DNA from: Candidatus Bathyarchaeota archaeon | GTDB taxonomy: Archaea; Thermoproteota; Bathyarchaeia; Bathyarchaeales; Bathycorpusculaceae | Reading direction: 5' to 3' | Length of the DNA: 64,000 bases | NCBI GenBank assembly: GCA_026014735.1 | Contig: JAOZHT010000001.1 | Location: 62,001 to 126,000, forward strand | Part shown: positions 18,306 to 39,842 of the stretch, piece by piece | Layout: each line of letters opens with the position of its first letter | Position numbering within the stretch: position 1 is the stretch's first letter | Program-made: the position numbers and the translations under genes | The notes under the pieces: generated by a model | Database searches by the model: none | What the model saw: the letters and a program-made list of their open reading frames with translations, nothing else | What the model was told of the DNA's origin: nothing

Positions 18306-19832
18306 TTAGGCTGCTGCGTTCGGTATACCGACGATGTCGCCGTTAACGCTTATTGTTGGATACAGGTAGACGCCCTTTGTGTCCAAGTTGTAGTCTAACC
18401 GTAGGAAGCGGGTGAAGTATTCCTGATGGATTGCCTGGGGGTTCCAGCTGGAGAAGACGTCGGGGTAGAGGACTTTTGCCATGTAGACTGCGCCGAGTGT
18501 GCCGCCCATTGCGTTGTTGCGGAAGTCACCTGCGATCATGTAGACGTGGCCGTTTTGGACTGCGGTAAGATTTGCGAAGCCTGGCTGAGCGATGTACTGT
18601 GCGAGTTGGTATTTCATGCCTGTGGGGTCGGTGGCGTCTATGCCTTGCGGGGGCTCTTGGGTGAGTCCACCATATGTGTATCTTACGGTGTGGACGAAAA
18701 TGTAGGCTGGATTCTGGTTGAGGATAAATTCTGTATCGATAGTTATGGACGCCCCGGTTAACGATGAGGCTATGTTTTTGCCTCCCGATAAGATGCAGGC
18801 TTGGCCTAGAGTGTCCTGGGCAGTGTAGGCTTTGGGGGCACCGGTGGTAAGGGTTGGGCAATTGGTTATCATCACAGATTTCAGCTGAGCCTCGGGGATG
18901 GTGTTGACTTTTGCGTTTATGGTGGATGTGAGGTTGAGTATCCAGTTTGCATATTCTGTTGCTCGGTCGACTTTGTTGAAGATGTAGCCTGCTTTGAGGA
19001 CGCCTTGGATGAAGCGGGAATCTTCCGGTTTAGTTACGTTGGGGTTGTATAAGCCCAAATATACCACGTCTACGCCGGGCAGATGGGCTGCTTTGTCAGC
19101 GGTGGCGGCGGTGAAAGTGAAAAGCGTTGTGGGGTGGAGGTTTAGGACTGCTTCGTAGTCCGGCGAACTCATTTGACCTACCATGGTTATGCTGGCGTAA
19201 TTGTTAGGGTAGAACAGCTGCTTAACTGGCTCAACGCCTGCGTCGATGCCGACCACCAAGTTCTCTACGCCAAGTATGCGTACGAGCTCGGTGTTTTGGT
19301 TGTACTCAACCACCAATCGGTTTGCAGGTAACGAAACTGATATGTTGGCTTTGTTGCCGTCGAGCATGTAGATTTTTGAAGCTGTCGCGCTGAGGAGTGC
19401 ATTAACTTGGGTTACATCGGCTGTGTTTACTGTGCCGTCTCTGTTTGCGTCGGCGAATTGGGTTGCGGTTCTGGAGCCGTCGATTATTTGCTGGATGTAG
19501 GTGGCGTCGGTGGAGTCGATTTTGTCGTCCATGTTGGCGTTGCCGTATATTTCTAGTGTGAGGTTCATGGCTGAGACCGTGGTGGGTTGGGTTGTCGGTT
19601 TTGCTGTTGGGTTGGCGGTTGGGGTTGGTTTTTTTGTTGGAGTGGCTGTGGGTGGGTTGCTCGTGGTTGGTTCTGTGGTGGGTTGTGGGGTTCCTGTTGG
19701 TGTGGGGGTGGATGTGTTTTGGGGTGTTTCGGTTGGTTGGAACCAGTTTTGGCTGTAACCGACTACTAGTGAGGATGCGATTATTATGGTGAGGAGGGCT
19801 CCTGCGATTATTGTTTTGTTCAAGGTGATCAC
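18306..19832 (-). CDS. ABC substrate-binding protein (BtuF/FepB class) with internal dockerin module
   Basis: 508 residues from GTG; a TTG nine bases further in (19823) fits the expected transcription start better and would be leaderless. Residues 5-27 are a signal/anchor segment without a lipobox cysteine. A Thr/Pro-rich linker spans about 32-86. Residues about 96-150 are a type I dockerin: two F-hand calcium loops (starting at 98, NANMDDKID, and at 128, DANRDGTVN), each followed by a helix. The rest is a two-lobed periplasmic-binding-protein class III fold (VVEYNQNTELVRILG, VVGIDAG, NYASITMVGQM, PTTLFTF). It would deliver a metal chelate such as a corrinoid to permease A. A dockerin in an importer component is unusual: dockerins normally plug into cohesin scaffolds. 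Confidence 0.9.
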   Translation of the reverse strand: MITLNKTIIAGALLTIIIASSLVVGYSQNWFQPTETPQNTSTPTPTGTPQPTTEPTTSNPPTATPTKKPTPTANPTAKPTTQPTTVSAMNLTLEIYGNANMDDKIDSTDATYIQQIIDGSRTATQFADANRDGTVNTADVTQVNALLSATASKIYMLDGNKANISVSLPANRLVVEYNQNTELVRILGVENLVVGIDAGVEPVKQLFYPNNYASITMVGQMSSPDYEAVLNLHPTTLFTFTAATADKAAHLPGVDVVYLGLYNPNVTKPEDSRFIQGVLKAGYIFNKVDRATEYANWILNLTSTINAKVNTIPEAQLKSVMITNCPTLTTGAPKAYTAQDTLGQACILSGGKNIASSLTGASITIDTEFILNQNPAYIFVHTVRYTYGGLTQEPPQGIDATDPTGMKYQLAQYIAQPGFANLTAVQNGHVYMIAGDFRNNAMGGTLGAVYMAKVLYPDVFSSWNPQAIHQEYFTRFLRLDYNLDTKGVYLYPTISVNGDIVGIPNAAA

Positions 19833-20756: not shown

Positions 20757-20796
20757 TTAACTTGTGATTAACTTGAGTTAAACCAAAATTTATAAG
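20757..20796 (+). promoter_or_regulatory. Operator and TATA box of the wHTH regulator gene
   Basis: Contains TTAACTTG twice, 11 bases apart (20757 and 20768), the second being half of the perfect palindrome TTAACTTGAGTTAA (20768-20781). This is followed by AACCAAA and a TTTATA box (20789-20794). Aligned with the sites at 21700, 24217 and 38425 it gives the shared pattern TNAAC-N4-GATTAA-N6-TTAAAC. Placed directly upstream of TATA, it could be an activator or repressor site, and here would allow autoregulation. Confidence 0.6.
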
Positions 20797-20844: not shown

Positions 20845-21675
20845 TTGACAAAACACCAACCAAGTTTCCTTGTAAACAAAAGCGAATTCACCAAATTCCA
20901 AATCCTATTCGAAGTCATGCGCAACCAACCCCACATCAAACAAAAAGACATCAGCGACAAACTCGGCATAACCACCCAAGCAATGTCCATCTACTTCAAA
21001 AAACTAATCAAAACCGGCCTCCTAGAAGCCGGCAGCGAACGAGCCGACTACCACCTAACCCCCAAAGGCGTAGCCACAATCAAAGATGTCATATCAAAAC
21101 TGGACGTCTACGTGAAAACAATAAAATCAGACCTCAAAGTCGAACACGCCTGGATAGCCCTAGCCACATGCACCGTGAAAGCCGGCGAACAAGTCGGCTT
21201 AATCTCCAAAGAAGGCATATTCTACACGGTGCCCCCAAGCAACCCTGACGTGGAAGCAATCGGAACCGCCATCTCCGATGCTGAGTCCGGCGAAGATTTA
21301 GGCTTAAAAAATCTCAATGGGCAGGTTAAGCTTAGGCAGGGCAGGATCCTTATCGTGAAGTTGCCCAGTATCCGCAAGGGCGGCTCAAAAGCGGCGGACA
21401 TAGAAAAGATCCGGGCGTATTATGAGGAGTTTAAGCCGGATCGCGTGGGTGTTATGGGGGCTGTGGCGCGGGTGGTTGCCGGTAAGCTTGGGGTAAGGGT
21501 GGATTTTGAGTTCGGTATTAGTCATTCGTCTGCGGTTGCTGCTTATAGGGGGCTCGATGTTTTGGTGTTGGTTGTTGGGCGGATGGTTAATCGGGTGATT
21601 GGGGAGGTTGATTCTTTGAATATGCGTTTTGGCGGGAACATTATTTATGAAGTGAAGGATGCTCAGTTGGTTTAG
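20845..21675 (+). CDS. Winged-helix transcriptional regulator of the corrinoid region
   Basis: 276 residues from TTG; GGGGG 15 bases upstream is a distant ribosome site, so the start is less certain. Residues about 15-80 form a MarR-like winged helix (IKQKDISDKLGITTQAMS, then LIKTGLLEAGSERADYHLTPKG). Residues about 110-276 form an alpha/beta domain with glycine-rich segments (PDRVGVMGAVARVVAGKLG, GISHSSAVAAYRGL), perhaps a ligand-sensing domain. It lies between importers A and B and its own promoter carries the shared operator, so it is the best candidate for the regulator of this region. The effector is unknown; a corrinoid is a reasonable guess from context. Confidence 0.85.
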   Translation: MTKHQPSFLVNKSEFTKFQILFEVMRNQPHIKQKDISDKLGITTQAMSIYFKKLIKTGLLEAGSERADYHLTPKGVATIKDVISKLDVYVKTIKSDLKVEHAWIALATCTVKAGEQVGLISKEGIFYTVPPSNPDVEAIGTAISDAESGEDLGLKNLNGQVKLRQGRILIVKLPSIRKGGSKAADIEKIRAYYEEFKPDRVGVMGAVARVVAGKLGVRVDFEFGISHSSAVAAYRGLDVLVLVVGRMVNRVIGEVDSLNMRFGGNIIYEVKDAQLV

Positions 21676-21699: not shown

Positions 21700-21764
21700 T
21701 TCAACTTGTGATTAAATTTACTTAAACCAAGGTTTATTAGAAAAAGCTGGCTAATCCATCCAGC
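21700..21764 (+). promoter_or_regulatory. Operator, TATA box and second inverted repeat of importer B operon
   Basis: TTCAACTTGTGATTAAATTT followed by ACTTAAACC at 21700-21728, then AAGG and TATA-like TTTATTAG (21733-21740). Just downstream is GCTGG-CTAATCCAT-CCAGC (21746-21764), a 5-base-arm inverted repeat. Because transcription should start about 25 bases after TATA (near 21763), this second repeat lies before the transcript and is better read as a DNA operator than as RNA structure. Very similar repeats sit at the same place at 24264 and 38470. Confidence 0.6.
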
Positions 21765-21866
21765 AAGGGACCGAGAAACCTTGCAAAAACAAACACACCA
21801 ACCATCCAGCCAGCCAACCACCCACTCCCCACCTCCAAACAATAACCCAACCAGGAGGTGTAACTT

Positions 21867-23114
21867 TTGAAGAAAACCACAATGGCAATCGCAGCATTCA
21901 TCATCGGAATCGTCCTAATCGCATCAACCTATGGCGCCTACACCCTCAACAGCCAACAACCCCCCACACCCAACACCTCACCCACACCAAACGACACAAC
22001 TTCCCCCACAAGCCCCGCCTCCCCCACCGGCACCCCCAGCGCAACCACAAGCACCCCCACCAAAACAAGTACAAAAACTTCAACTTCAAGCTCCCAAACA
22101 AGTTCCAGTTCCAGTACCCCAACGCCTACTCCCGCCCCAACCAGCGTCACCGTAACAGACGGCGACAACAACACCATGACAATATCGCTTCCAGTCAAAA
22201 AAATCGCTGCTCTCGACGGCGGAATCGCGGAGATTTTGTGCGCTATGGGCGTGCAGAACCTGATTGTTGCCCGCACGGATAGCTGTACGATGCCGCCTTC
22301 GATTCTAAACGTTACTTCGTATGGCGAAAACGATTATGCTCCAAGCGTTGAGGGCCTCATCTCCCTTCACCCGGATGTGATCTTTGCAAGTTCAATGTTG
22401 CCCTATAACCCTACGTCTTACCAGCAACTCTTAGCGGCGGGTATACCTGTCTACATCGTTGACACAACCACTCCTGAACCGCTGAATCCTTCTCTGTTGA
22501 CTAAAGCTGAACTCTACGCTTTGCCTACCGCAATAGACTTCACCTGTCAATTAATGCAGAAGTTCGTTCCCATAGTGGGGCATCAAGATAACGTAGATGC
22601 ATACGTTACCTGGGCACAGAGCTACAACAAAATCGTCAAAGACCGCATCTACACCTTAGCATCAAGCCAACAAGTCAAAACCTACCTGGAATGGTACGGC
22701 TACGGCAGAACCTTCGTTACACAAAGCGTCTACCAAGCAGGCGGAACCAACATCGCCGAGAACCAAACCAACTTCTCGCCTGTCCTAAGCAGCGAATTCA
22801 TCGTTGAACAGAACCCCTCCGCCATAATCGTGCTCATCGCCAGCAGCACCCACAACATAAACGACTTCATAGCAGCCAAAAACGATGTAACCTCTCGTCC
22901 GGCGCTCAAAAACATCGATGCAGTCAAGTACGATAGAGTTTACGTCTGTGACTTCTATGCCCGAAGCGGCGTCCGCAGCATCATAGGCTATCTCTACTGG
23001 GCAAAATGGCTTCAGCCAAGCCTCTTCTCTGACATAAACCCCGGCGCAGTGAATCAGGAGCTTAATCAAAAGTTCTTCGGAACAGCCATTCCAGGGACGT
23101 TTGCGTATCCATGA
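21867..23114 (+). CDS. ABC substrate-binding protein, importer B
   Basis: 415 residues from TTG with GGAGGTG 6 bases before it. Residues 5-28 form a signal/anchor segment; residues about 32-92 are a Pro/Ser/Thr linker that should carry the domain through the cell wall. The remainder is a class III binding domain (VKKIAALDGGIAEILCAMG, ARTDSC, VTSYGENDYAPSVEGLISLHPD). It resembles the importer C protein but has the added linker. Its stop overlaps the permease ATG (ATGA). Corrinoid is the likely ligand from context. Confidence 0.9.
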   Translation: MKKTTMAIAAFIIGIVLIASTYGAYTLNSQQPPTPNTSPTPNDTTSPTSPASPTGTPSATTSTPTKTSTKTSTSSSQTSSSSSTPTPTPAPTSVTVTDGDNNTMTISLPVKKIAALDGGIAEILCAMGVQNLIVARTDSCTMPPSILNVTSYGENDYAPSVEGLISLHPDVIFASSMLPYNPTSYQQLLAAGIPVYIVDTTTPEPLNPSLLTKAELYALPTAIDFTCQLMQKFVPIVGHQDNVDAYVTWAQSYNKIVKDRIYTLASSQQVKTYLEWYGYGRTFVTQSVYQAGGTNIAENQTNFSPVLSSEFIVEQNPSAIIVLIASSTHNINDFIAAKNDVTSRPALKNIDAVKYDRVYVCDFYARSGVRSIIGYLYWAKWLQPSLFSDINPGAVNQELNQKFFGTAIPGTFAYP

Positions 23115-37037: not shown

Positions 37038-38315
37038 TTACTTTTTTAGCTCATCCAACTTGGAGACGGCAAACGGAACCAGCATCTCCTCCTCGCAGAG
37101 GCCGCCATGCTGCCCCATAAACGTAATCCTCGTAGTGAACTGCTCAAACCAAACCGTCTCGCCGCCGCAGGGCAAAATAAGCAGGTTCCCGGCGCGATCC
37201 AAAAAGTCCTGGCTTGCCGCGCCAACCCCAAACAAGCCCTCCTCCACTGCCTGCGCTGTCTCCACGATTTCCGCGCGGTCGCCGAGCTGTGTCATCAGCC
37301 ACGCTTTGGTTTCCTGCAGCTTATCCTCTTTTATGTGTAGGAAAATTTCGCGTGGGCCGCCTGTGGGCATGATGGGTTTTCCGTTGCTGCCACGCTGCAG
37401 GTTCATCATGGTTTTTGGCTGTAGGTTAAGGTAGATGGTTCGGTTGGGGTTCGATTCGATTCCGCCGTGGTCTGCAGTTAGAAGCAGCAGCGTCTCTTTT
37501 GCTGTTGATGAATCCAGCTTCTCCACCAGTTCCCTTTGCAGCAGATAAGTGATCGTTGCCAACTCGGCTTGGTACTCTATGCTTTGGGGTCCATACTGAT
37601 GCGAAATCGTGTCTAACGTGTCAAGGTGAACAAAAAAGTAGGCGTTACCCGAGGTTTCCTCCAGGTTCTTCCGGAGCCGAACAATCGTGTCGGAGGTTTT
37701 CAGCGAAGGCACCATGGTGCTGCCCTTGAAAATCAGTTTTGAGCATGCGTTAGAGCTGTTTGCCGCCTGCATATGCGCAAAGCTGCTGACGCCCCAGCTG
37801 CTTAGGGTCTGATGGATGCTTTTTCCATTAAACATTAAGCTGGGGTCAAAGCCCTCGTCGATGAGCTTTCGGTTTCCGCCGCCGATGCGCTCAAACTGCA
37901 AGGCGTTGATGAGCCCGATGTTTTTTAGGTAAATAAAATACTCGAGCATTCCATGCTGCTGCGGCGTTAACCCCGTGTTTAGGGTTGTTAGGGCATTGGT
38001 GGTTTGGGAGGGAAACACGCTGGTTAACGGGGAAACCTCGCCTGCCTCTGTGAGGCCTTTGAGGAAGGGGTTTTGTTTGTGGTGGTTTATGAATTGGTCA
38101 AATCCGAAGCCGTCAACAACCAGTAGCACGACTTTGTTTGCTTTTTCAGCATCAACTGTGCCTTGGCAATCCGCTAGGAGGTTGGGTGCTGAGTTTTTTA
38201 TGTGGAAGTGCGAAAGGATGGTGTTTGGGATGTTTGAGATGCAGGCTCTTTCGTATTGGGGGTAGATGAAGTTGGTGTCGGGGTTTTTTGGTGTGGCGAG
38301 TTTTTGGACTAGCAT
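37038..38315 (-). CDS. Alkaline-phosphatase-superfamily phosphodiesterase/nucleotide pyrophosphatase
   Basis: 425 residues. Fits the type I phosphodiesterase family: VLLVVDGFGFDQF (metal aspartate), VFPSQTTNALTTLNTGLTPQQHG with the nucleophilic threonine after FPS, and LLLTADHGG late in the protein. These two-metal enzymes cleave phosphodiesters or pyrophosphates of nucleotides or related compounds. No signal peptide, so cytoplasmic. The HLDTLDTISHQYGP stretch gives further metal ligands. Transcribed divergently from the alpha/beta hydrolase. Confidence 0.88.
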   Translation of the reverse strand: MLVQKLATPKNPDTNFIYPQYERACISNIPNTILSHFHIKNSAPNLLADCQGTVDAEKANKVVLLVVDGFGFDQFINHHKQNPFLKGLTEAGEVSPLTSVFPSQTTNALTTLNTGLTPQQHGMLEYFIYLKNIGLINALQFERIGGGNRKLIDEGFDPSLMFNGKSIHQTLSSWGVSSFAHMQAANSSNACSKLIFKGSTMVPSLKTSDTIVRLRKNLEETSGNAYFFVHLDTLDTISHQYGPQSIEYQAELATITYLLQRELVEKLDSSTAKETLLLLTADHGGIESNPNRTIYLNLQPKTMMNLQRGSNGKPIMPTGGPREIFLHIKEDKLQETKAWLMTQLGDRAEIVETAQAVEEGLFGVGAASQDFLDRAGNLLILPCGGETVWFEQFTTRITFMGQHGGLCEEEMLVPFAVSKLDELKK

Positions 38316-38365: not shown

Positions 38366-38380
38366 GATATAAAGTTTGGT
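38366..38380 (-). promoter_or_regulatory. Core promoter of the phosphodiesterase gene
   Basis: On the minus strand ACCAAACTTTATATC precedes the gene by about 50 bases. It resembles the core of the four corrinoid-region promoters (AAACCAARGTTTAT) but lacks their upstream TGATTAA motif, showing that the ACCAAA-TTTATA part is probably just the organism's strong BRE/TATA. Confidence 0.6.
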
Positions 38381-38424
38381 TTATTTTGTTTAACTGTGGG
38401 TTTAGCGGTGGCCGAATAACATAA

Positions 38425-38487
38425 TCAACCTATGATTAATTTAAGTTAAACCAAAGTTTATATCGTATGCTGGCTTAACCATACCAG
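38425..38487 (+). promoter_or_regulatory. Operator, TATA box and second inverted repeat of the alpha/beta hydrolase gene
   Basis: TCAACCTATGATTAATTTAA followed by GTTAAACC (38425-38452), AAAG, TTTATATC (38457-38464), and GCTGGCTTAACCATACCAG (38469-38487, CTGG/CCAG arms). Same three-part layout as at 21700 and 24217, although it lies 3 kb beyond the corrinoid operon. This ties the hydrolase to the same control. Confidence 0.6.
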
Positions 38488-38493
38488 TCAACC

Positions 38494-38623
38494 GCTTTGC
38501 ACACAACAAAGCCTGACTGAATCTGAAAACCAAACACAGATTCAAACCGCCACCATAGATAAAAAAAAGCCGAAGCTCTGCCGTAGGGGACCCCAACCTG
38601 CCCAACCCATCCCCTACGGTAGA
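38494..38623 (+). ncRNA. Candidate structured leader RNA with three hairpins
   Basis: About 190 bases separate the expected transcription start (near 38486) from the hydrolase ATG. Three successive inverted repeats occur: GCTTTG/CAAAGC (38494-38499, 38507-38512), TGAATCTG/CAGATTCA (38518-38525, 38537-38544) and a 14-base stem TCTGCCGTAGGGGA/TCCCCTACGGTAGA (38577-38590, 38610-38623; one G-U pair). Such ordered stems in an otherwise compact genome suggest a cis-regulatory RNA or a small RNA. I see no match to the cobalamin riboswitch core. Confidence 0.45.
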
Positions 38624-38677
38624 ATAGCCGCCGCCCATAAACAACGTTGATAAACAAAACCCGCATAAACTAACAAG

Positions 38678-39562
38678 ATGGTGCCAGTGAAAAGCCAAAC
38701 CGCCGTTTTGCCCGATGGCCGACAACTCGGATACACAACCGTCGGCAAAGGAGACCCTGTCCTGTATTTTCATGGCACCGCAAGCAGCCGCCTTGAAGTT
38801 TTACTTCTAAAAGACCTTGCTGAATCCCAGAATCTGCAACTTATCGGCGTCGACCGCCCCGGCTATGGGCTGTCCAGTTACGAATCAGGCCGTGACCTGC
38901 AAGGCTTTAACGGCGACGTCAACGCTTTGATGGATCATCTGGGCATTGGTCGGTTTGGGCTTCTGGGTTGGTCAGGCGGCGGAGTGTTTGCGTTGGCGTA
39001 TCTGGCGTTTTTTTCTAGCCGCGTAACCCATGCGGTCGTGGCTTCTTCACCGTCTTTACCGTTTGATGTTTCAAGTGCACATAACATGCCCCTGGCACGC
39101 TACATCATGAAGCTGCCCTTCGTGGGGGTTTTGGCGATGCGGCAGATGCGCCGAGAAGTCCTGCGTGCCGGGAACGCCGCGGCTTTTCTGTCTTCTCCGC
39201 AGGGCAAGCGGATGCTGCGTGGCTGCTCAACCGATGACTTGAGGTTTTTTGGCGACCCAGCTTGGATGGATTTGATGTATCAGTCGATGGCTGAAGCGTT
39301 CCGTCAGGGCGAGGCGGGGGTGCAGGCGGTGGTTTTGGAGCACCAGTTTTTTGCTAAGCCGTGGAGTTTTTCTTTTGATGGTGTTCCCGCGGGTAAGTTG
39401 ACGGTTTGGCATGGAAGCGATGATTTGACCTGTAGGGTTGAGAATGCTTATGCGTTGTGTCGCTGTGTTGGGGGGAGTGGCTTGGAGGTTTTTGTTGGTC
39501 GGGGGCATTGTGTGTTGTTTGGGGAGTGTGGGCGGCTGGGTGGGCTTCTGAGGGGTGTTTGA
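38678..39562 (+). CDS. Alpha/beta hydrolase
   Basis: 294 residues from ATG (no clear ribosome site; the leader is discussed separately). Oxyanion HG at 32-33, nucleophile elbow GWSGGG with S99, an aspartate in HGSDD and a late histidine in GRGHCVLF complete the triad. Residues about 128-210 form a helical cap. The family includes esterases, peptidases and haloalkane-type hydrolases; substrate cannot be read. Its promoter carries the corrinoid-region operators, so a corrinoid, ester or amide substrate from that pathway is worth testing. Confidence 0.88.
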   Translation: MVPVKSQTAVLPDGRQLGYTTVGKGDPVLYFHGTASSRLEVLLLKDLAESQNLQLIGVDRPGYGLSSYESGRDLQGFNGDVNALMDHLGIGRFGLLGWSGGGVFALAYLAFFSSRVTHAVVASSPSLPFDVSSAHNMPLARYIMKLPFVGVLAMRQMRREVLRAGNAAAFLSSPQGKRMLRGCSTDDLRFFGDPAWMDLMYQSMAEAFRQGEAGVQAVVLEHQFFAKPWSFSFDGVPAGKLTVWHGSDDLTCRVENAYALCRCVGGSGLEVFVGRGHCVLFGECGRLGGLLRGV

Positions 39563-39731
39563 TTTGGGGTTGGCGGTAGTTTTATATGGTGGTTTGTGGT
39601 AATATGCTGTTGGTGTTACGAATTGGACGTTTGGTAACACCAATAACCTTTTTTTGAAAACCTTAAAAAACCACCGCGCCACTTCCCCCTTATCCCTACT
39701 TCTAATCCAATCGTCTTGGGAGGTGAATTTT

Positions 39732-39842
39732 TTGAGTAAATCCAAAAAGAAAGACATGACAGTCAAGGAAGCTGGACGAATGGGTGGTCAAAGAGAAAAA
39801 GAACTCGTTGAGGAAGGCAAGAAACATGAAGATGAAGATTAG
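39732..39842 (+). CDS. 36-residue KGG-like stress microprotein
   Basis: TTG start with GGGAGGTGAA 6 bases upstream. The 36 residues include MTVKEAGRMGGQ followed by a charged KELVEEGKKHEDED tail, resembling one unit of the KGG repeat of bacterial stress-induced hydrophilic proteins (EAGRKGGE-type). Highly hydrophilic, probably disordered. It lies 21 bases before the F420-dependent enzyme gene and may share its transcript. Confidence 0.6.
   Translation: MSKSKKKDMTVKEAGRMGGQREKELVEEGKKHEDED

Follow-up and report, generated by a model that had tools for sequence, protein, structure and literature searches.

The 64-kb window analysed here (the whole stretch of 64,000 nucleotides, to which all positions refer) carries at 38486–38629 what is probably the local copy of a genus-specific structured RNA, expressed from a promoter of the corrinoid/cobalt regulon and best read as a small RNA (sRNA). 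The existence of the RNA and its membership of the regulon are well supported by sequence comparison. In this genus of termite-gut archaea the RNA probably stands alone as a rule, not as the leader of a gene. The window copy is best interpreted as a corrinoid/cobalt-regulon sRNA of about 130–145 nt, which here would be co-transcribed with the downstream hydrolase gene.

Predicted fold of the window RNA

The RNA comprises the following elements:

38486–38629, + strand: predicted structured RNA of about 144 nt (sRNA body or hydrolase leader), with a fold z of -7.18 and homologues in the genus
38486–38518, + strand: hairpin 1, 5 + 6 pairs, predicted by folding; extra relative to the free-standing homologues
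38518–38544, + strand: hairpin 2, 7–8 pairs, predicted by folding; positional counterpart of domain 1 of the homologues
38552–38576, + strand: single-stranded linker ACCATAGATAAAAAAAAGCCGAAGC, defined by alignments; genus consensus RTCATAGA-n-GCCGTRGARAA
38577–38623, + strand: long hairpin (domain 2), 14 pairs, identified by covariation and by the match of a model built without this copy; consensus TCTATCGTGGG...CCCACGATAGA

The three stems of 6, 8 and 14 pairs described in the initial annotation are present, the longest occupying exactly 38577–38623. Direct reading of the sequence and the folds agree on stem 1, in which GCTTTG (38494–38499) pairs with CAAAGC (38507–38512) over 6 pairs, with an outer extension formed by AGTCA (38486–38490) and TGACT (38514–38518). 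Stem 2 joins TGAATCTG (38518–38525) to CAGATTCA (38537–38544) by 8 pairs, or by 7 if stem 1 keeps position 38518. Stem 3, formed by TCTGCCGTAGGGGA (38577–38590) and TCCCCTACGGTAGA (38610–38623), consists of 14 uninterrupted pairs closing a 19-nt loop. The 144-nt segment 38486–38629 folds at -42.7 kcal/mol versus -20.1 kcal/mol for shuffled sequences (z -7.2), a stability reached by none of 200 shuffles. Extension of the segment to 38690 gives -52.4 kcal/mol versus -30.3 +/- 3.8 kcal/mol (z -5.8, again 0 of 200), and the fold of the opposite strand of the hairpin region is less exceptional (z -2.5). The TATA box TTTATAT (38457–38463) places the probable 5' end of the RNA near 38486, and the end of the conserved hairpin suggests a 3' end at 38629.

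At the gathering score, Rfam models have no match in the 64-kb window or in 12 homologous loci, and a relaxed search of 38380–38760 returned only PK-repZ, with 13.9 bits versus a gathering score of 44. No tRNA was found either. A tiny open reading frame within the RNA was rejected, its start and frame not being conserved.

Promoter and the corrinoid/cobalt regulon

The promoter of the RNA and the related elements of the window are:

38436–38463, + strand: regulon promoter box TTAATTTAAGTTAAACCAAAGTTTATAT, a TTAA-type palindrome joined to the TATA box
38470–38487, no strand assigned: palindrome CTGGCTTAACCATACCAG, of the form TGGNTWANCCA, overlapping the predicted start site; second operator-like site
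20768–20795, + strand: the same box before the DUF7839/MarR-type regulator gene, located by the genome-wide box search
20845–21675, + strand: protein with a MarR-like HTH and DUF7839, candidate regulator of the box as suggested by its position
21712–21738, + strand: the same box before the btuF-like gene at 21867, located by the genome-wide box search

The rare box TTAANTTAANTTAAACCAAAGTTTATA marks out a genus-wide corrinoid/cobalt regulon. At up to three mismatches, the 38436–38462 sequence TTAATTTAAGTTAAACCAAAGTTTATA has three sites in the 2.9-Mb genome, and its reversed control has none. The two other copies precede the regulator gene (20768) and btuF (21712); all three thus lie in a corrinoid context, which bears out the earlier assignment of this promoter to the corrinoid set. 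In the genus as a whole, 39 boxes with up to two mismatches were counted among the matches listed, versus 2 in the control, and the genes preceded by a box include cbiM (Pfam CbiM), cobaltochelatase, btuF, the DUF7839 gene and a phosphodiesterase-hydrolase operon. The region of the window upstream of the RNA contains corrinoid uptake genes, a putative cobaltochelatase subunit, CobN and CbiZ. The position of its gene alone makes the DUF7839 protein the obvious candidate for the regulator that recognizes the box.

The TGGNTWANCCA palindrome recurs at the corresponding site before btuF (GCTGGCTAATCCATCCAGC, about 21748–21766), in the form TTGGATAATCCAA before the cobaltochelatase promoters of relatives, and where transcription is expected to start at several regulon promoters. 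It may be another operator.

Two further features of corrinoid-related genes were observed. The corrinoid-type periplasmic binding protein encoded at 18306–19832 carries a dockerin type I domain. Nitrogenase-like genes, among them one with a NifH domain joined to a nitrogenase component 1 domain, occur at L104:5688-9156 (also in L110, L111 and L113); they have genes for cobalamin synthesis and for a corrinoid-type ABC ATPase as neighbours and possibly encode a tetrapyrrole-reducing system.

Homologues and covariation within the genus

Homologous RNA was found at 19 loci in 13 of the 32 genus genomes sampled, among which the window genome is designated G000. Two weak matches (G019:C141 and G028:C3) were removed as coding-like sequence with neither a box nor a long hairpin. 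Since MAFFT had not brought the stems of the first three leaders into register, the first covariance model, R1, used only the G007 sequence, duplicated to give an alignment. It found G016 and two loci not linked to a hydrolase, in G010 and G026, and a linker pattern search found G001, G004, G020 and G027; the loci found in these two ways all lie behind a regulon box. The second model, R2, comprised seven sequences and added G002, G014, G015 and G028, together with extra copies in G004, G026, G027 and G028. G000 was deliberately omitted from both R2 and R3, and model searches supplied the later alignments.

The sole match of R2 in the window at E up to 5 is 38552–38629 (E 0.03, 16 bits). The best window match of R3 is likewise the window copy (E 0.098), and R3 has no match at E up to 2 when searched against the whole genome of this copy. 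The 16-bit score would not be significant at genome scale and represents a modest recognition, so the assignment also leans on the box, the fold and the hydrolase position shared with G007 and G016. The window copy is the most divergent of the homologues and lacks most of the GCCGTRGARAA part of the linker. No second copy was found in its own genome by BLASTN or by model search. A BLASTN search of 61 genomes with the leader matched relatives mainly at the promoter box and gave short weak matches elsewhere. Outside the genus, no homologue was detected under stricter filters in genomes sampled from the same order (151 genomes and 64 genera in all).

The homologues share a common layout: a first hairpin (domain 1), often closed by GATAGA/TCTATC, is followed by the linker and then by the long hairpin, which carries a small apical stem. 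The linker lies 69–106 nt behind the regulon-type promoter in the homologues measured; counted from the TATA box, the distance is 76–83 nt in the measurable free-standing copies, 69 nt in G014 and 91–106 nt in the three hydrolase-linked copies. The box is degenerate in G016 and G014. Free-standing RNAs begin with domain 1 and have no counterpart of window hairpin 1. Hairpin 2 of the window is homologous in position to domain 1, the hairpin just 5' of the ATAGA linker, and differs from it in sequence.

Absence of covariation had been named beforehand as a result that would speak against a structured regulatory RNA. The long hairpin does covary: both-side changes occur at 11 of its 15 pairs in a 12-sequence alignment, in which 93% of the cells are paired, counts to be read with the fact that the alignments were fitted to the structure, which favours pairing. 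On every measure all 500 shuffles fall short of the alignment, and sliding the partner strand gives 27–44% pairing. The long hairpin is also the minimum-energy fold of single sequences, with the exception of G020, in which its 3' half is disrupted near the contig end. Seven of eight full-length relatives have folds with z from -3.3 to -4.8, a tandem copy of G028 reaching only -1.6; the values for G007 and G016 are -4.0 and -4.3.

Other candidate features were discarded. An anti-Shine-Dalgarno CCTCC occurs in the loops of G001 and G010 and is not conserved, and neither is a pseudoknot of the first loop with the linker's GTGGAG, possible by eye in a few genomes. A T-run close downstream is absent from most copies of the RNA.

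Gene context, alternatives and possible function

Genomes with the RNA have one to three copies of it, all preceded by a promoter of the regulon type, recognized by the box, the start-site palindrome or both. A convergent gene comes next in G001, G002, G004, G010, G014 and G026a; in G028 and G015 the next gene lies more than 600 nt away. In G026b it has a box-like promoter of its own, and in G027a a co-directional mechanosensitive-channel gene begins at least 121 nt downstream. At least ten loci have no close co-directional partner gene. The homologues thus show the own promoter and the lack of a dependent ORF expected of a free-standing sRNA gene, and the position directly upstream of a co-directional gene, expected of a cis leader, is not kept among them. 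A review of archaeal small RNAs cautions that a conserved structure found by prediction need not be an sRNA gene and may belong, riboswitch-like, to a UTR (PMC3432209). In the present genus, gene context points to sRNA genes in most species, and the suggestion that the longest stem is part of an independent small RNA is favoured by the comparison.

Tandem pairs with one box per copy are present in G004, G015, G027 and G028; the pairs of G015, G027:C125 and G028 are nearly identical and do not count as independent observations. The G027:C125 locus (L112) is a short contig near-identical to the G015 and G028 loci, even though G027 has a differing copy of its own; this points to cross-binning or recent transfer.

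The genes flanking the RNA in the window are:

37038–38315, - strand: divergent gene of the phosphodiesterase/nucleotide pyrophosphatase family, a neighbour of the hydrolase in many genus genomes
38678–39562, + strand: alpha/beta hydrolase (Abhydrolase_1, Pfam PF00561), 49 nt after the RNA in G000
39610–39656, + strand: hairpin TTGGTGTTAC...GTAACACCAA with a 10-bp stem, then TAACC and seven T, as read from the sequence

Hydrolase orthologues are encoded in 24 of the 32 genomes, and a comparable long-hairpin leader besides that of the window occurs only in G007 and G016, such a leader being absent in 21 of the 24. Only in G000, G007 and G016 does the hydrolase follow the hairpin on the same strand, at 49–63 nt. 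The Shine-Dalgarno motif is missing before the hydrolase in G000 and G007, consistent with the earlier observation that the ATG at 38678 lacks a ribosome site, and the gene cannot extend further upstream because of an in-frame TAA at 38666–38668. In all three genomes the stretch between the long hairpin and the hydrolase is free of T-runs. The terminator-like hairpin at 39610–39656 is the probable end of the hydrolase transcript; it exceeds the loop and spacing limits of the consensus terminator scan, which did not flag it. The lack of a T-run before the hydrolase and the hairpin with seven T after it make a joint RNA-hydrolase transcript likely.

Two observations concern the hydrolase and its surroundings. 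In G023:C44 (L033/L032) the orthologue is split across two frames. Downstream in the window, 39720–39842 encodes a lysine/glutamate-rich peptide of about 40 residues, SKSKKKDMTVKEAGRMGGQREKELVEEGKKHEDED, which resembles small stress-associated KGG-type proteins; a Pfam search with this peptide gave no match.

Among the alternatives to an sRNA acting on other transcripts, a protein-binding decoy, in which the hairpins or the repeated TAGA motifs titrate an RNA-binding protein, is unlikely. It has a bacterial precedent in EutX/Rli55 of the Gram-positive Enterococcus and Listeria, a cobalamin-linked decoy sRNA that titrates EutV (PMC5821096). EutX/Rli55 resembles the present family in its stand-alone, vitamin B12-tied, two-hairpin arrangement. 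EutX, however, combines a cobalamin riboswitch with a constitutive promoter, whereas the present family has no riboswitch match and its promoter is the regulated part. The free-standing two-hairpin layout, the tandem copies in four genomes, and the conservation of structure over sequence together with short recurring TAGA/GCCG motifs all speak for a decoy, which fits the anatomy about as well as other trans mechanisms. Against it, the size and sequence of the hairpin loops vary between species, and the analysis identified no candidate RNA-binding partner.

A cis-acting leader, riboswitch-like or an attenuator, through which the RNA senses corrinoid or cobalt and controls the hydrolase, is improbable. 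The initial annotation had proposed a structured regulatory RNA acting as a ligand-sensing leader; the structured part of that proposal stands on the fold and the covariation, and the cis riboswitch part finds no support in the mostly free-standing homologues. The arrangement in G000, G007 and G016, close, co-directional and free of a T-run, would suit such a leader, as would the missing Shine-Dalgarno motif in two of these genomes. TCTATC of the long hairpin can, moreover, pair with the upstream ATAGA too, which would allow switching, but this alternative amounts to 4–5 pairs versus a hairpin region of roughly -25 kcal/mol. Most homologues lack a close downstream co-directional gene, other hydrolase orthologues of the genus lack the leader, and no Rfam riboswitch matches. 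Like the cobalamin riboswitch (RF00174 and relatives), the RNA is associated with corrinoid uptake and synthesis genes; unlike it, the family has no match to these models at the gathering or relaxed threshold and usually has no following gene.

It is quite improbable that the structure is a fortuitously folded long 5' UTR, or that the hydrolase has a start-proximal promoter and a vestigial leader. A weak TATA-like GTTGATAAAC near 38650, about 26 nt before the hydrolase ATG, would permit a leaderless mRNA, and most of the linker core is missing from the window copy, but the strong fold of this copy with its 14 uninterrupted pairs, the genus-wide compensatory evolution and the retention of the regulon promoter run counter to both versions. 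A mobile or DNA-level repeat, MITE-like or a palindromic protein-binding site without function as RNA, is highly improbable: a large inverted repeat and the palindromic TCTRTCATAGA in several copies would fit it, but the few copies per genome lie behind regulon-type promoters and keep their pairing while the hairpin sequence changes, and the single copy of the window genome is not the set of multiple dispersed copies expected of a MITE.

The preferred reading thus remains an sRNA of the corrinoid/cobalt regulon. Experimental work on archaeal sRNAs has centred on methanogens, haloarchaea and a few hyperthermophiles, and few of these RNAs are linked to specific regulons. An archaeal sRNA is a known kind of molecule, and as far as tested the family, the regulon and the taxon are new: no paper on a matching RNA family was found in the open-access literature and no Rfam family corresponds to it, nor did that literature yield a regulatory RNA described for Bathyarchaeia. 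The family presents a concrete testable case, since the regulon, promoter, RNA boundaries and homologues are all named, and also a natural experiment, the sRNA gene being independent in most species and forming the 5' portion of a protein-coding transcript in others.

The metal-sparing sRNAs of the RyhB type are bacterial and Hfq-dependent, stand under the control of a regulator for a cofactor or metal in short supply and are sometimes duplicated. The present RNA resembles them in its probable place under a regulator of this kind and in the duplicates of some genomes; its structure is different, and a sparing role is only a hypothesis. Among archaeal RNAs, sRNA162 of Methanosarcina mazei is tied to the switch between methanol and methylamine, a metabolism of corrinoid proteins. 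This trans/cis antisense sRNA masks a ribosome binding site with its single-stranded linker (PMC3510493). Both are archaeal structured RNAs with a single-stranded linker, which in the window family is only the candidate pairing segment. Targets and processing are demonstrated for sRNA162, whereas the window family is known here from sequence alone, and no sequence relation is expected between them. The window family further differs in belonging to the corrinoid/cobalt regulon and in that it can be tandem or precede an mRNA.

In the proposed mechanism, the corrinoid/cobalt regulator would release the box, and the RNA would be made together with the genes for corrinoid uptake and cobalt chelation. 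The hairpins would stabilize the RNA and display the single-stranded linker and the C-rich loops, which could base-pair with other mRNAs and so adjust corrinoid-dependent metabolism. With sRNA162 as the model, the linker is the most likely point of contact with a target; the target itself and the pairing mechanism are guesses. In G000, G007 and G016 the promoter would also drive the hydrolase, producing a hybrid transcript whose 5' part, the sRNA, may stay as a leader or be released by processing. On a broader view, it is possible, although doubtful, that the family rewires corrinoid metabolism post-transcriptionally and has been captured as a leader in some species, acting both in trans and in cis. 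If so, no earlier vitamin-B12-regulon sRNA of archaea would be known, as judged from the open-access literature searched. A search with the antisense pattern of the linker core gave 57 sites in 8 genomes versus 36 for the control, with no coherent target set. In G020, G027 and G010, sites fall near the start of an orthologous membrane-protein gene, within a conserved coding motif.
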